Shown here piece after piece: positions 27,476-63,752 of a DNA stretch of 64,000 bases (positions are counted from its first letter, which is position 1; every line of letters starts with the position of its first letter). The position numbers were made by a program, and so were the translations under genes. Below the pieces are notes generated by a model, which was given only the letters and a program-made list of their open reading frames with translations, was not told where the DNA came from and made no database searches. The DNA comes from Pedobacter changchengzhani (GTDB taxonomy: Bacteria > Bacteroidota > Bacteroidia > Sphingobacteriales > Sphingobacteriaceae): assembly GCF_004354365.1 (NCBI RefSeq), contig NZ_SJCY01000009.1, positions 62,001 to 126,000 on the forward strand. Reading direction: 5' to 3'.

Positions 27476-28309
27476 ATGTCGGTATTATTATTTACCATAA
27501 TTGTATTAGTTGGCGCTTTTCTAGCTGGTTTATTAGGTTCGTTAACAGGCTTGGGCGGTGGCGTAATCATCATTCCATTATTAACATTGGGTTTAGGTGT
27601 AGATATTCATTACGCCATTGGTGCTTCAATCGTTTCTGTAATTGCAACATCTTCTGGTTCGGCGGCAGCCTATGTAAAAGAGGGTATTACAAATATTAGA
27701 ATTGGCATGTTTTTAGAAATTGCCACAACCATTGGCGCTGTTGGTGGTGCGGTGGTAGCTATTTACATCAATGCAAACTACATCGCAATTATTTTCGGTT
27801 GCATATTAATATTCTCGGCAATAATGACGCTGAAGAAAAAGATAGATCACTCTACTTTAGACAATACAGATAAAATAGCAAAATTCTTTAAATTAAATGG
27901 TTCTTATCCCGACAAAGGCATCGTTCACAACTATGCTGTAAAAAATGTTCCCGGAGGATTTTTTATGATGCTTTTTGCAGGTACACTTTCAGGTTTGTTG
28001 GGTATTGGCAGTGGCGCATTAAAAGTAATTGCGATGGATAACATTATGCGTTTGCCATTTAAAGTTTCCACTACCACCAGTAATTTTATGATGGGTGTAA
28101 CGGCTGCTGCTAGTGCAATAATTTATCTACACCGTGGACAAATAGATCCTGGTATTGCAATGCCAGTTTGTATTGGTGTAGTAATTGGTGCTACTGTTGG
28201 TGCAAAATTATTGTTGAAAACCAAAACCGATAAACTTAAAATTATTTTTGCAATTGTAGTTGCTTTTTTGGCCGTACAAATGATATATAAAGGAATAAGT
28301 GGATTATGA
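27476..28309 (+). CDS. TauE/SafE family sulfite/anion exporter
   Basis: 277 residues, about eight membrane segments in two homologous halves. The half-motifs are G-L-G-G-G-V-I-I-I-P (about 25-35) and G-I-G-S-G-A-L-K-V (about 175-185). The family moves sulfite, sulfoacetate, or other small anions out of the cell, and often the substrate is unclear. It overlaps the DUF1634 gene by 4 bases (ATGA), the usual pairing for this type. A second TauE-type protein is encoded in the sulfur locus at 60230-61027. Confidence 0.9.
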   Translation: MSVLLFTIIVLVGAFLAGLLGSLTGLGGGVIIIPLLTLGLGVDIHYAIGASIVSVIATSSGSAAAYVKEGITNIRIGMFLEIATTIGAVGGAVVAIYINANYIAIIFGCILIFSAIMTLKKKIDHSTLDNTDKIAKFFKLNGSYPDKGIVHNYAVKNVPGGFFMMLFAGTLSGLLGIGSGALKVIAMDNIMRLPFKVSTTTSNFMMGVTAAASAIIYLHRGQIDPGIAMPVCIGVVIGATVGAKLLLKTKTDKLKIIFAIVVAFLAVQMIYKGISGL

Positions 28310-28704
28310 TAGACGAGGCGAAAAAAATGACCATTAATGATAGAGATGTGCAAGTGATATTGGGCACACTTTTGCGTGCCGGTGTGGTTATCTCTATGGC
28401 TTTTGTATTATTCGGAGGCGTAATTTATTTAGTCCATAATAAAGGTGTAATTACCGATTATCGCGTTTTTAAACCAGAATTGGCAAAATTTTCATCCATT
28501 GGTGCAGTTATTAACGGACTTATAAGTTTTAAAGGCGATGCGATAGTTCAATTTGGCATACTGCTACTCATTTTTACACCTATTGCCAGGATCATATTTT
28601 CAATTTTTAGCTTTTTATTAGAACGCGATTACCTATATGTATTTATCTGTTTTATAGTTTTAGCAATAATTGCAGTAAGTTTAAGTGGCGGGCTTGCGCA
28701 TTAG
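28306..28704 (+). CDS. DUF1634 domain membrane protein
   Basis: 132 residues with three membrane segments (about 20-45, 80-100 and 108-128). The DUF1634 motif R-D-V-Q-V-I-L-G-T-L-L-R-A-G-V is at the start. DUF1634 proteins are found next to TauE-type transporters and are thought to be their partners; no activity is established. The start codon overlaps the TauE stop codon (ATGA), so the two are surely cotranscribed and translationally coupled. Confidence 0.9.
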   Translation: MIDEAKKMTINDRDVQVILGTLLRAGVVISMAFVLFGGVIYLVHNKGVITDYRVFKPELAKFSSIGAVINGLISFKGDAIVQFGILLLIFTPIARIIFSIFSFLLERDYLYVFICFIVLAIIAVSLSGGLAH

Positions 28705-28830
28705 GTTTAAAAAATTTCTCGGTTTTACATTTGTCATTCTCAGCTTGAATGTGAATCTCAATTGCTTTTAAAAGATTTCTCAGCTTTGTTTTACTTTTCA
28801 GCCCCTGGTTGCTGTTATCGTATTACCATT

Positions 28831-28911
28831 AACATTTTTAATTTATTTTAATGGTAATTTCTAATTCTAAATCTCTAAAATTGTGACTTAAATATCTTCA
28901 AAATATAACAA
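28831..28911 (+). repeat. upstream repeat copy 1 (before 28912 gene)
   Basis: Shares CATTTTTAATTTATTTTAAT and then CTAAAATTG-GACTTAAATATCTTCA, ending at ...AACAAAT, with the region before the gene at 30353 (30271-30345). It probably holds the promoter and leader of the gene. Confidence 0.7.
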
Positions 28912-30204
28912 ATGGCAAAATCAGGAAAGATTGTTCAACTTCATCAAAAACCCGAGAACTATATTAAATCTCGTGCTAGAGAATTACAAATTGGAAAATG
29001 TTACATTAATGCTGATTGGGAAGAAGCTGGCATTGCCAATGTAATCGTAAGTCGTGAACATACTAATGGAAATTTCACATTAGGGGTTTATTTAATAGAT
29101 TTTAAATGTTTGGGTATAAAGGATGCTTATTTTAAATTCAACCTATCCGCAGATGATTTTGATAAACTTGTTGATTTGATTGGTGGTGTGGAGATAGACT
29201 ACATTAAAGCGCATAATATGGTTTATGGCGCTGAAGCTTTTGCCAACGACTGTGGCTTTAAGCCGCATAAAGATTGGGCAATAGCACAATTTGTACTCGA
29301 AGAGGATGATGAAAAGATTCCAATTATTGAAATCGAATTTGGCGAAGATGGTAAGCCTGCTTATTATGTAGGCCCTAATGATACCCCTGCTAAAATAAAA
29401 CAAATATTGGCTACATTGGATAAAACCATGGGCAGAGAAAATTATTTGTTTTATTATGATGAAGACGATGATGTTTTTGATGATGAGTTGATATTTCCGG
29501 ATGATGATTTTGATAAAATTCTTGATGGAAAGAAATTGCCAAATTTAATGCAACTATACTTCATTCTATTAGAGGGCTATGATCGTCAGGTTAAGCCTAA
29601 AGTCGCTATTAACCTGGATGAAGATTTAGTTGGCGAAATTTTGGAAGAGATGGTTGTCGGTAATTTTTATACCATCAATAATGATTTGGAAGCTGAAATA
29701 TCAAAATGTGTTGATTTACATGAAGCTATTTTTGACGAAAAATGTGCTGATAGCATTGTTGAAATAAATAAGCTTTTAATTAAAAATCCCAACAATCCTT
29801 ATTTCTATATCGAACTATTTTTGCAGTATAAGCATGCACAATTTAATAGTAAGGCGAAGGAGATAGCCAAACAGGGCATGTTGCTTTTCCCTGACTTTTT
29901 ATACTTTAGGTTTTTGGTTGCCCATGCAGAAATGGTTGATGGTGATATTGAAAAAGGATTTAAGCTATTAAACAGTAATTATTATCTCAATCAGGCTTTT
30001 CCCCAGCGAACTACTTTTTCAGAGGGAGAACTTATGTTTTTTTACGCCTCAATATGTGAGTATTTCCTTGAAAAAGGGGATATTGATAGTGCAATTGCGT
30101 GCGGTAACATATTAATAGATGACGTTAATCAATATGCATGTAATGAACTTGCAATAATTGGTATTTGTAAGGCAATGAAGGATAAAATTGAAAAATTTAA
30201 ATAA
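28912..30204 (+). CDS. hypothetical TPR-like cytosolic protein
   Basis: 430 residues with no signal peptide. The N-terminal part (about 15-75) has C-Y-I-N-A-D-W-E-E-A-G-I-A, V-S-R-E-H and the motif Y-L-I-D-F-K-C-L-G-I-K-D-A-Y-F-K-F, which I recall from other bacterial proteins of unknown role. A long acidic segment with D-E-D-D-D-V-F-D-D-E-L follows (about 170-195), then helical repeats (about 270-425) that look like tetratricopeptides. The upstream 80 bases are repeated before the next gene, so the two could share control. Function not recognised. Confidence 0.7.
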   Translation: MAKSGKIVQLHQKPENYIKSRARELQIGKCYINADWEEAGIANVIVSREHTNGNFTLGVYLIDFKCLGIKDAYFKFNLSADDFDKLVDLIGGVEIDYIKAHNMVYGAEAFANDCGFKPHKDWAIAQFVLEEDDEKIPIIEIEFGEDGKPAYYVGPNDTPAKIKQILATLDKTMGRENYLFYYDEDDDVFDDELIFPDDDFDKILDGKKLPNLMQLYFILLEGYDRQVKPKVAINLDEDLVGEILEEMVVGNFYTINNDLEAEISKCVDLHEAIFDEKCADSIVEINKLLIKNPNNPYFYIELFLQYKHAQFNSKAKEIAKQGMLLFPDFLYFRFLVAHAEMVDGDIEKGFKLLNSNYYLNQAFPQRTTFSEGELMFFYASICEYFLEKGDIDSAIACGNILIDDVNQYACNELAIIGICKAMKDKIEKFK

Positions 30205-30270
30205 TATCAGTTTGAGATACTTGCTATTACAGAAACTATTTTTTCTATAATAGGTATTATAAAGTCACCG

Positions 30271-30345
30271 TCAGCATTTTTAATTTATTTTAATTTCTAG
30301 ATATCTAAAATTGCGACTTAAATATCTTCAGATTACAACAAATAC
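30271..30345 (+). repeat. upstream repeat copy 2 (before the gene at 30353)
   Basis: Second copy of the shared upstream sequence at 28831-28911: ATTTTTAATTTATTTTAAT, then ATCTAAAATTG and GACTTAAATATCTTCA, then ACAACAAAT. Two different genes therefore carry the same 75-80 bases at their 5' sides. Confidence 0.7.
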
Positions 30346-30352
30346 AACTTAT

Positions 30353-31402
30353 ATGTTAAAGCAAGGTCAAGTTATGCATAAACTAATTATCTTACTATTT
30401 TTAATGATATTTTCGTCTTCGTTCGTATCTGCCCAAGAGACTACATTAGATAACTTCAGCTATTGGTTAAAAGAAGTTAATGCCGAGTTTAATTTACCTA
30501 AAGGCTTTAAGGAAATGGACAACGATGGCCCTTTTCCATCGCTACCACGAGGAAAGTTGATTAGTGGCCAAGTTTACCGCATTGGCAATTCAAAAGGTAG
30601 TACAATCAGTATAGAGGTAAACTAAGTCCGTGAAGGTTATTATGATTATGAAACTCGAAAATCAATCGATTCGTTATCTAATACGGGTTATCTTAGGGAA
30701 CAAGCCTACATTAAAGATTATAGTCATATCGATACCGATGTTGTACCTAAAATTGCTTACCTGAAAACAAATGCCGACAGTATTATTATTTACACCATTA
30801 AATTGCAAAAAATCGACTATCCTGGCAAATATAGCTTTATTAAACGTGTGGTACTTCACAAAGATGATGTTGGCGAGGTAGCCCTTAATTTCTTGGGCAA
30901 AGACAGTGCTGATGAGCCGAAAATAGATAAATACATCCAATCGGTTTGGGGTATAATTAAATTCAAGGCAGATTCTTTGTACAAACCGACAGTAATGACA
31001 GATGCTTTAGTAGGCAAATTCTATAAAATGCGTCCTGTTCAAACAGCAGCTCAAGTACAAGCTGCAACCAAAAAAAATGAGAGGGAGTTATCTTTATCGT
31101 TGGTTAGTGCGCAAGAATATTTGCGCGATCATCAATTTAAAGAGGCATTGAGCAACTGTAACCAAGTTTTAAAATTATATCCAACTAATCAAACTGCCTT
31201 TTTAATTGGTATTGAAGCGCAGGTAGGATTAGGAAATTTGGATGAAGCATTATTAATGGGCAAAAAAGGCGTTATGGCGTTAGATCAACCTTATAATAAA
31301 GAATGTGGCTATGCAGATAGTTTAATTCAATTGGGTAGGCCAAAAGAAGCCATAGAAATATATATTAAAATTTTGAAAGAACATGGTGTTAAACGATCCT
31401 AA
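30353..31402 (+). pseudogene. secreted TPR-containing protein broken by an in-frame TAA
   Basis: One reading frame of 349 codons from 30353 (or the ATG at 30374 before the signal peptide L-I-I-L-L-F-L-M-I-F...S-A-Q) is cut by TAA at 30623-30625. Both sides stay in the same frame with no gap: ...S-I-E-V-N, stop, V-R-E-G-Y-Y-D-Y-E... The second part continues with a beta region, W-G-I-I-K-F-K-A-D-S, and a TPR-like C-terminus (about 265-345, L-K-L-Y-P-T-N-Q-T-A). No start codon with a good context lies near the stop. I call it a pseudogene, but sequencing error or readthrough is possible. The next gene is a paralogue with the same fault. Confidence 0.75.
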
Positions 31403-31623
31403 AGTACTTGCGGGCTATCATCTTTATTCGCCTTAGAATGTGTTAGTAGAGAAGTTTAGTTGGTATTGGTATTAGAAGTTTTAAAAAGTTTTTAGCCAAT
31501 TTCTCTCAATAAAAGACTGATTGAGTATTAAAATAGAGGCTTACACCTACACATATTTTATTGATGAAAGTTCAATAATTGTTTATATTAAAATTTGTTT
31601 TCGCTTGGAGTTAAATTATTATT

Positions 31624-32787
31624 ATGGCTGATAAAATAAATCAAAAATTTCTATTGCTAAAGATTGCTTTTTTAAAAATATTTAATTTTCAGAATGCTCA
31701 CTGGTTTATGCATATCAGAGATTCATATTATCATTTTAATAAAGCTAAAATAGCTAATTCGTTTAGACTATTTTTTTGTTTATTATTGATAAATCATGTA
31801 GCTTATGGACAGAACTCTCCTATTATTTATTCAGATATAAACATTTCGTTAAGTACACCCCACGGTTATAAATTATTTAACCACGACGAGTATATGTCGT
31901 ATCAAGAATCTGAATTTAGAAGAGGATTTGTGTTAGACGTGTTTAAAAATGAAAATTCAAGTAATTAGATAGGCATAACGGAAATAATGAATTCGCGGAT
32001 CGTCGGCAATTTGTCTCCAAATCAAACTGACTACTATAATAGTGATAATAAATGGTTATGGAATACAAGTTTTGTAGATTTAGATACGGCATCTGAAACT
32101 ATTCCTGTGCCCAAAAGATTTATTAAGAGTATGAACGCAGATACTGTAATAATAAGATTGGCAACCGATAGTTTAGCTAAAGCCCAAAGAAGAGATACTA
32201 TAAGATATAATGGGAAGTTATACTCTTGTCTATATGCAATTGCGGTAAAGAAAGATCTTGGCGCAATTTGGCTATCTTATAACTATGAGGCTGGTAAACT
32301 GAAAGAGGGTTTAAAAGAAGTTTATAGAACTTGGGGAATGGCAAAATTTAGACCTGATAGTGATATGAAAAGGGGAGATAAGGATAGCACTACAATTTTC
32401 TTTGGTAAATTTAGGCATCTTAATACGCCAGCAGTTTTAAGGAAAGATTCTCTTATGATTGCAAAAGTGCTTCAAATTGACCCCTACCGTTTTGAGGATA
32501 AGATACTTTCTGCCAATTTTCAACTCTATCAGAAAGGCTATGATCAATGTATAAAAATTGCTGATGCAGCCATCAAGACTTATTTAGATTTGAAAGCGCA
32601 ACCTGGTAATTTAATTAAGAATGAGGTAAACACTAATAGGCAAATTGGCAGTTTTTATTTCATGAAGGGTTCAGCTTTACAAGGTTTAAAAGATGATGAG
32701 CACGCTAAAATCGCTTTTGTAGCAGCAAAAAACCTAGGTTATCCTATTCCACCAGAAATTGAAAGTTTTATTGGACAAAAGGAATAA
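31624..32787 (+). pseudogene. paralogue of the previous gene, broken by an in-frame TAG
   Basis: A frame of 387 codons from 31624 (or the ATG at 31708 before the hydrophobic stretch ending A-Y-G-Q) is cut by TAG at 31966-31968 and goes on in the same frame to TAA at 32785. The sequence after the stop reads I-G-I-T-E-I-M-N-S-R; the ATG at 31987 could restart the second part. It is a paralogue of the gene before it: matched points include N-A-D-x-I-I-I/N-A-D-T-V-I-I, and W-G-x-x-K-F-x-x-D-S. Both end in a TPR-like helical region. Secreted, function unknown. Confidence 0.72.
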
Positions 32788-32981
32788 TTTCATCCTCTCA
32801 TCGGTTCTATCACCGTATGCTATTAAGTATTTAATGTTCCATTGAAACTATAATTCCTACATTGTAACCGCTAATTCAATATTTCATCTTAGTTTAAGTT
32901 GCGTTTTAACCCATAAAACAAATATTTTTTTCTAACTCCCCATCTATCAGCAAATTATTTGAAAAAATATTTACCTAACAC

Positions 32982-33012
32982 TTTGATAATTAATAATTCT
33001 TACCTATCTTTG
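32982..33012 (+). promoter_or_regulatory. rplC operon promoter
   Basis: TTTG at 32982-32985, 19 bases, then TATCTTTG at 33005-33012, a full consensus match. It gives the S10-type cluster its own start point, away from the str promoter that serves rpsJ. Confidence 0.75.
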
Positions 33013-33046
33013 CCCTCCCTTAAAAGGGATGAACAACCACCTTGAA

Positions 33047-33064
33047 CGAAGCCCTACTGCTTCG
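33047..33064 (+). promoter_or_regulatory. leader hairpin before rplC
   Basis: CGAAGC, loop CCTACT, GCTTCG: a six-pair hairpin in the rplC leader, 28 bases before the ATG at 33092. Ribosomal operons are often controlled by such leader structures; the binding protein is not known here. Confidence 0.35.
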
Positions 33065-33091
33065 ATGGGTGTTAAAAAAAGAAAAGATAAA

Positions 33092-61907: not shown

Positions 61908-63752
61908 TTATTTTGTAGCTTTTTCGAACGCATTTGCGCCATTTACAACTGGCAAAGTTAACGTAGTGTGATTTAAATCGATTGTAATTTCTGTACCTGG
62001 TTTTGGCCATAATGTAAATTCTTTATCGCTAGAAAAAATTACAACTCCAATTTGTTTCCCTGCTGGTATAATCTGATCGTCAGGTTGTAAATTGAATTTT
62101 AAGTTGTAGAATTTACCTGGTTTTAAAGGCTTACTTTTTGTTAATGATTTACTATTTTGAGGATCTGCCCATCCGCGGGTAATTATATTATCCATTAATT
62201 TTGCGCCCTTTCCTTCGCTCCAAGGCAAAGCAACCAACCAAACCGAAAAATTAGCTGCTTTTTTACTGCTTGCTAATCTCACAGAAATTTGAGTTAATCC
62301 AGATAAATGTACCGCTTCTTTCAGTATAGGCGTTACATAAAGTAGGCGATGATCTGATTTTTCGGCTTTTGCTAAGTCACTTCCTGAAATGGAAACATCA
62401 TCTACTAATTTTTCATTATTTTGATTTTCTGTTGGTGCAACTGAAAGCTTTCCGGCTGAATTTCCGCCAGCTGTAAGATATAATTTTACATCGCTAGCTG
62501 CGGGGTTAGGGAAATCAGCATAAGGCGTAGGGTTATCGTTTTTGTCGTTTTCTCTAACAATCCAAGCTTTTGGCTCATTTTCTACGCCATTATCAATATT
62601 GTACAAATATTTTGTAAACCATCTGTTCATCATGGTAAATGGTGGTTCGCCACCGTGTCCTTCTTGGTGATAGTATATTTTAACCGGCAACCCCATTTTT
62701 TCTGCAGCTTTATAGATGCGGTAACTGTGTTCTGCCATTACATTCCAATCGTTAAAACCGTGCGACATAAATAAGGCCGCTTTCATTGGCTTCATTTGAT
62801 TTAGATAATCTCTACCTGCCCAAAATTTATTGTAATCACCTTTCTCTCTATCCATGCCCTTCATCATCTCGCCATCTCTTACCACGCGATCGCCATAAGC
62901 TCTTTTTTCTTCAGCACCACTGTGAATGAAATCGTATAAAACATCAATATCTTCTCCTAAATATCCACCCGGACTTCTAACTAGTCCATTTGAGCGATAA
63001 TAATGATAGTATGAAGTATTTGGTGCAACTGGAATAATAGCTTTTAAACCTTCTACGCCGGTTGTTGCTGCAGCAAGTGGAATTGTGCCATTGTATGAAG
63101 TTCCTGTCATACCAACATTGCCGGTACTCCAATAAGCTTTAACTTTTTCATCACCAGTTCTAGATGTGTAACCATTATCTTTTCCCGAAAGCCATTCTAT
63201 TACCGCCTTTGGTGCTAACGATTCGTTAATGCCGCCTACTGTTGGCGAACCATCAGAAAGACCTGTACCTGGAGAGGACGAGTGTACAATTATATAACCA
63301 CGTTTTACCCAATCGTAAATAAATTCATTCGAAATTATTGGTCGGTTTCCAGTACGTTTAACTGAAGGATGATCGTGCATATATGGCGGTTTTTCATCTA
63401 CTTCTTGCTTCACATCCCAAAAAGAATTAGGACCATCTTCTGATACTCCGGCATAGTAAGGACTACTACCGTAAATTACGGCGAGTTTTAATCCTTCAGT
63501 TTCTGTTTGGAAAGGCCTAGTAACATCTACGTGCATACGGTCTAACTTTCCATCTCCGTCGGTATCGAAGGTGGTTTCTACCCATAAATCGGTTCTAATC
63601 CATTTATCTGGCGTATCAAATGCTTTTACAATTTGCGCTTCTCCATCTTTAAATATGGGTTGCGCTTTTTCTTGAGCAAAACTTTGCGTGGTAACAAACG
63701 CAAAAACTGCAAAATTTAAGATTAAAATTCTTGTTAAATTTAATTTTTTCAT
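61908..63752 (-). CDS. secreted CocE/NonD-type hydrolase, Xaa-Pro dipeptidyl-peptidase (S15)
   Basis: 614 residues; signal peptide (about 1-27, ending S-F-A-Q). An alpha/beta-hydrolase domain has the nucleophile Ser219 in G-M-T-G-T-S-Y, an Asp in H-G-F-N-D-W (about 345), and a His in Y-H-Q-E-G-H-G-G (about 370). The C-terminal domain (about 400-610) is a beta jelly-roll (L-Y-L-T-A-G-G-N, L-P-V-V-N-G) as in PepX and CocE. D-T-D-G-D-G-K-L-D-R-M-H-V near residue 62 is typical for Bacteroidota members. It removes Xaa-Pro dipeptides or cleaves esters; the exact substrate is unknown. Confidence 0.88.
   Translation of the reverse strand: MKKLNLTRILILNFAVFAFVTTQSFAQEKAQPIFKDGEAQIVKAFDTPDKWIRTDLWVETTFDTDGDGKLDRMHVDVTRPFQTETEGLKLAVIYGSSPYYAGVSEDGPNSFWDVKQEVDEKPPYMHDHPSVKRTGNRPIISNEFIYDWVKRGYIIVHSSSPGTGLSDGSPTVGGINESLAPKAVIEWLSGKDNGYTSRTGDEKVKAYWSTGNVGMTGTSYNGTIPLAAATTGVEGLKAIIPVAPNTSYYHYYRSNGLVRSPGGYLGEDIDVLYDFIHSGAEEKRAYGDRVVRDGEMMKGMDREKGDYNKFWAGRDYLNQMKPMKAALFMSHGFNDWNVMAEHSYRIYKAAEKMGLPVKIYYHQEGHGGEPPFTMMNRWFTKYLYNIDNGVENEPKAWIVRENDKNDNPTPYADFPNPAASDVKLYLTAGGNSAGKLSVAPTENQNNEKLVDDVSISGSDLAKAEKSDHRLLYVTPILKEAVHLSGLTQISVRLASSKKAANFSVWLVALPWSEGKGAKLMDNIITRGWADPQNSKSLTKSKPLKPGKFYNLKFNLQPDDQIIPAGKQIGVVIFSSDKEFTLWPKPGTEITIDLNHTTLTLPVVNGANAFEKATK

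Follow-up and report, generated by a model that had tools for sequence, protein, structure and literature searches.

Two In-Frame Stops in Adjacent Secreted-Protein Paralogues of Pedobacter changchengzhani: Probable Independent Nonsense Mutations

Two adjacent genes for related, secreted-looking proteins in Pedobacter changchengzhani are each cut by one in-frame stop codon, and the two stops lie near each other when the products are aligned. Do these breaks have a common cause? The genes, here called copy 1 and copy 2, are found in a window of 64,000 nucleotides (positions 62,001 to 126,000 of contig NZ_SJCY01000009.1), which is the whole stretch that was analysed. Relative to intact homologues both genes carry a premature in-frame stop, the mark of a nonsense pseudogene, and the breaks are very probably explained by two nonsense mutations, both recent and independent of each other, in dispensable paralogues. 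The near-match of the two positions is most likely a weak coincidence. The outcome is mainly a correction, in that a pattern of breaks at one place became, after relatives had been aligned, two different stops in dispensable-looking genes. Side results, of modest use, are a family of secreted-looking proteins, unnamed and patchily distributed, and a cargo site that varies upstream of rplC, beside the ribosomal-protein genes. The features of the two genes are:

30353-31402, plus strand: copy 1 (P1), stop-interrupted gene whose secreted-looking product has a TPR C-terminus (translation, Pfam, and coding score before and after the stop)
30623-30625, plus strand: in-frame TAA of copy 1
30626-31399, plus strand: post-stop frame of copy 1, 258 codons, with the TPR matches; first in-frame start-type codon TTG 30803
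31624-32787, plus strand: copy 2 (P2), stop-interrupted gene whose product is secreted-looking; genome G028 has an intact relative at 51% identity
31966-31968, plus strand: in-frame TAG of copy 2
31987-32787, plus strand: post-stop open frame of copy 2 and possible restart; the ATG lies 18 bases beyond the TAG and opens 266 codons

The two copies and the distance between their stops

Translation gives a single internal stop in each secreted-looking frame and no frame shift, as the preliminary description had it. Copy 1 is open for 90 codons before its stop and 258 after it, copy 2 for 114 before and 272 after, and the true start of copy 2 may be the ATG at 31708 instead of 31624. Judged by eye, both N-termini resemble signal peptides, ending in SFVSAQE in copy 1 and HVAYGQN in copy 2, and no signal peptide is recognised in either post-stop piece. 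A TPR-like C-terminus had been proposed for both products; this stands for copy 1, where PF14559 scores above its curated cut-off (E 2.3e-7, 31.5 bits vs 25), and not for copy 2, where the best TPR match in Pfam, TPR_8, is very weak and below its cut-off (E 0.074, 13.7 bits vs 25.7). Against NCBIfam, copy 1 gave one match, TIGR02917, at 17.8 bits and far under the cut-off of 312. In the members scanned, the N-terminal domain is covered by no Pfam or NCBIfam model above its cut-off. The suggested beta region could not be confirmed; the sole structure prediction, made for read-through copy 2 with copy 1 as its one additional row, has a mean pLDDT of 33 and is meaningless, and a sequence search of the PDB with the intact G028 relative gave one match (E 0.49). 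With the after-stop pieces as queries, no second copy of either gene was found in the genome (3,903,523 bases in 35 contigs; E limit up to 1 in one search and up to 0.001 in the other).

The paralogy of the two products is real but distant. In a single blastp comparison with the stop written as X they are 24% identical (51 of 211 residues, E 6e-5), and the shared residues named earlier are present, NADSIII and WGIIKFKADS of copy 1 corresponding to NADTVII and WGMAKFRPDS of copy 2. The stops are 5 columns apart in a MAFFT alignment of six sequences and 8 columns apart in an alignment of 41, or 7 once the columns empty in both copies are removed. In the larger alignment they flank the segment ISIEVN/IGITEI on opposite sides. 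When it comes to pairwise alignment, four of nine settings gave a distance of 5 residues, two (PAM250) gave 17, and three aligned the stop of copy 1 with a gap. A separation within about ten residues holds in most of these alignments, but a shared break site does not; the stops are near each other, not identical in position, and the DNA around them is unrelated. With uniformly placed stops, a distance of at most 8 columns has p = 0.039 and one of at most 10 columns p = 0.048, for a pattern that was chosen after the fact. A chance of about 4% on such terms does not support the claim that independent decay would be unlikely.

A break in one gene might have passed to the other by gene conversion, or through a mutational target common to both, and the two paralogues are indeed adjacent with their stops near each other. 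However, one stop is TAA and the other TAG, their positions differ, the proteins are only 24% identical, and no DNA repeat of at least 20 nt covering both stop sites was found. One 27-nt match of 70% ends just before the TAA and pairs with 32605-32631, not with the TAG. This alternative is close to refuted and is given almost no weight. Since the stop codons differ, the surrounding DNA is unrelated and the positions are 5-8 residues apart, the two mutations appear to be independent.

If so, the product of each gene would have been a secreted protein whose N-terminal domain, of an unnamed family, carried the N-A-D and W-G-x-x-K-F motifs and whose C-terminus was helical, in copy 1 of the TPR type. 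One nonsense mutation per gene would end translation after about 90 codons in copy 1 and at most 114 codons in copy 2. The N-terminal stub could still be exported, while the post-stop part, having no signal peptide, probably either fails to be produced or stays unexported.

The intact state in relatives and the condition of the frames

Relatives were sought in 145 genomes of the genus (144 besides its own) and in a sample of 301 genomes of the family. Copy 2 as query matched two of the genus genomes, its own and G028, and the G028 relative is an intact single frame of 354 amino acids with a sense codon at the copy 2 stop. Copy 1 as query matched four genus genomes, its own included, the best other match being 26% identical (E 2.7e-11). 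An alignment of six sequences as query reached 14 of the 145 genus genomes and 31 of the 301 in the family sample, own included in both. The family of secreted-looking proteins is unnamed and patchily distributed.

The frame alignment drew on 43 matches outside the genome itself that had a locus (one more, in G183, had none). Four of these (L022, L047, L050, and L053) were dropped as short or lying elsewhere in the model, leaving 39 aligned frames, several of them from one genome. Thirty-six are unbroken through both stop columns. The remaining three do not cover both columns; L026 has a partial second domain, L029 (in G031) looks like a remnant, and L035 (in G172) is interrupted elsewhere, and is among the relative frames read the only one clearly interrupted inside the domain, at another place. 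Recurrent stops in the family, suggested by apparent stops inside the G013 and G128 proteins, were rejected; these are natural protein ends, at 209 and 230 amino acids. Because 36 of the 39 frames span both columns, the intact state is one gene, with neither stop shared.

The same alignment bears on a two-part organisation, which had been offered as an alternative and in which each piece would act as a gene of its own and translation would start again past the stop. As a conserved layout this organisation is refuted, since the intact homologues run as single frames across this point with no split. The ATG at 31987 opens a long frame just past the TAG of copy 2, but the close G028 relative has Leu, not Met, at this position. 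Copy 1 has no nearby start, its in-frame start-type codons after the TAA being TTG 30803, GTG 30848, and ATG 30995, and the second pieces of both copies lack a signal peptide by eye. A restart in the present pair is therefore regarded as highly improbable.

Comparison with G028 also tells something of the age of the copy 2 stop. After the TAG, 272 codons align without a gap at 53% identity, with differences of 0.31/0.28/0.62 at codon positions 1/2/3, and before it 80 codons align at 38% identity, with differences of 0.44/0.40/0.65. The differences after the TAG indicate that selection acted on the copy 2 protein over most of its past. A hexamer coding score trained on the long frames of the genome itself is positive on either side of both stops. 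Since the alignment is free of gaps over 272 codons and the coding score is positive, the TAG would be young relative to the divergence from G028, and judged from these sequences it looks recent. A look for relaxed selection found no gap and no second stop, with a single relative (51% identity) to compare for copy 2 and none close for copy 1.

Codons that look maintained after the stops would also suit leaky or regulated readthrough, where the stops lower the production of the full protein and do not abolish it. One study reports that in bacterial genes many in-frame stops sit in sequences with a ratio of nonsynonymous to synonymous substitution rates (dN/dS) below 1 (Belinky et al., 2021; PMC7918605). 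The same study states that such stops tend to last only short evolutionary times, which fits recent decay equally well. Neither stop is conserved in the relatives, where 36 of 39 frames are open at both columns. A search for transfer RNAs (tRNAs) gave 35 places, and ARAGORN read 25 different anticodons on 30 loci, with more on five other places. No tRNA with the anticodon CTA, TTA, or TCA was seen at the 35 places, the covariance search having scored 150 of 381 candidates in a draft assembly, so that a suppressor with a poor score may have escaped it. Programmed readthrough, which the preliminary description had named, is left unsupported, and leaky or regulated readthrough in general is quite improbable. 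We put very little trust in the further idea that the stops, flanking one short conserved segment, are a kept feature, by which a full-length secreted pair would be made through rare readthrough and a short exported N-terminal piece would be the main product.

Errors of sequencing or assembly could have made one or both stops, with the genes intact in the organism. The genome is a draft of 35 contigs and both frames are otherwise flawless. On the other hand, both stops are inside a 196-kb contig, and the reported completeness is 100% and the contamination 0.03%, though these figures are silent on single bases. Two substitution errors 1.3 kb apart without an indel are not expected of a short-read assembly. 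Such errors are considered unlikely.

A scan for other genes with a single stop, using a two-sided coding filter, covered 395,922 bases, roughly 10% of the genome. It gave 20 candidate stops, those of copies 1 and 2 included, and eight of the 18 others were run against Pfam. One is a true interruption, a four-helix-bundle gene of the 23S rRNA intervening-sequence type (L068:5790-6146, contig C5) with a single in-frame TAA at L068:5952, which PF05635 matches at full length across the stop. At least three of the 20 candidates are thus true interruptions. Two other candidates are by look ordinary gene ends, C35:12294 standing between a PIN gene and a methyltransferase gene and L071:13059 having a family match on one side only. 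Five of the eight have no Pfam family; among them is C35:173491, which was also rejected, as it ends where the frames of its relatives end.

Several observations weigh against two recent nonsense mutations. The nearness of the stops, at about 4% by chance, is mildly unusual. Both post-stop frames still score overall as coding, with no further stop or frame shift, which also fits a working gene. The first 25 codons after the TAG are the weakest part of the frame and barely reach the filter (0.05). Among the 144 other genus genomes copy 1 has no close relative by which its stop could be dated, the best being 26% identical. Decay has not taken hold of the stretch as a whole, since the neighbouring gene for a 430-amino-acid protein is intact, and the case is built on the assembly of one strain. 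With these points taken into account, we infer that the organism itself carries both stops, that a single base change produced each of them, and that function was abolished and selection relaxed.

The variable site upstream of rplC and the neighbourhood of the relatives

Copies 1 and 2 are found in a stretch of varying content:

28702-33079, no strand: variable (cargo) stretch from a conserved small membrane-protein-like gene to rplC, measured to an rplC start at 33080
28912-30204, plus strand: intact gene, also within the variable stretch, for a 430-amino-acid protein of unknown family; the G137 relative at this site has six in-frame stops
28825-28913, no strand: leader of the 430-amino-acid gene, repeated before copy 1 at 30267-30343

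The start of rplC is at 33029 or 33080. The small gene upstream (28306-28704), which we take to be DUF1634, is kept in 16 of 17 genus relatives fetched and was not found in G139. With site length taken as the distance between the ends of tblastn alignments of the small gene and rplC, 13 of the 17 relatives have 163-188 bases, G049 has 397, G137 1,621, and G047 6,154, and the present genome has 4,378. The cargo of G047 appears by eye to be fatty-acid-type synthase and reductase genes, and that of G137 is only the relative of the 430-amino-acid gene with its six stops. As both length and content differ and the G137 gene is broken, the site is a variable one where cargo arrives and, at least in G137, decays. 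Given this patch of optional genes and the very patchy relatives, loss of copies 1 and 2 probably costs little.

The 430-amino-acid protein is encoded in 12 of the 145 genus genomes, own included, five of which have only an N- or C-terminal part; the gene is intact here and in five others at 56-62% identity. It has no Pfam or NCBIfam match. PADLOC gave only partial matches, of P0002 to REase_II (E 4e-4) and of the 430-amino-acid gene to PDC-M71B (E 0.0018). With a 76% match over 89 bases, the leader of this gene resembles that of copy 1, and copy 1 may therefore owe its leader to a local duplication. The leader sequence has one further short match elsewhere in the genome (34 bases, 82%).

In three genomes (G028, G128, and G137) a relative is found within about 2.2 kb of a gene with a C39 peptidase domain, the loci being L010/L004, L013/L122, and L012/L123, respectively. 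In G128 and G137 the relative adjoins proteins in which a motif scan recognised a leader of the double-glycine type. The G028 neighbour resembles these by eye, but the motif scan did not detect it. Another neighbour in G028 is LanC-like (PF05147, E 2.3e-4, below the cut-off). The C39 search took in 12 of the 13 other genus genomes bearing the family (G006 was left out), and a C39 gene this near a family member was found in three of the 12; G111 has no C39 gene. C39 genes are in any case widespread in the genus, being present in 22 of 24 searched genomes and in 10 of the 11 that lack a family member, so a role of the family in secretion loci is only a lead from gene neighbourhood.

Comparison with known systems

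The relatives near C39 genes belong to the same secreted family, and the one in G028 is the close relative of copy 2. Unlike these loci, the present genome has its single C39 match on contig C34, away from the pair.

Nonsense pseudogenes in the accessory, strain-variable regions of bacterial genomes are of a known kind. Copies 1 and 2 resemble them in that one stop interrupts a frame that is otherwise intact, in their variable location, and in having intact relatives elsewhere. They differ in that two neighbouring paralogues are broken at nearby positions, and in that the N-terminal domain has no Pfam or NCBIfam model above cut-off in the members scanned. Like the genes for which readthrough has been proposed (Belinky et al., 2021; PMC7918605), both frames continue and keep their coding character after the stop. 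As a difference, none of the 36 relatives spanning the columns shares either of the present stops.
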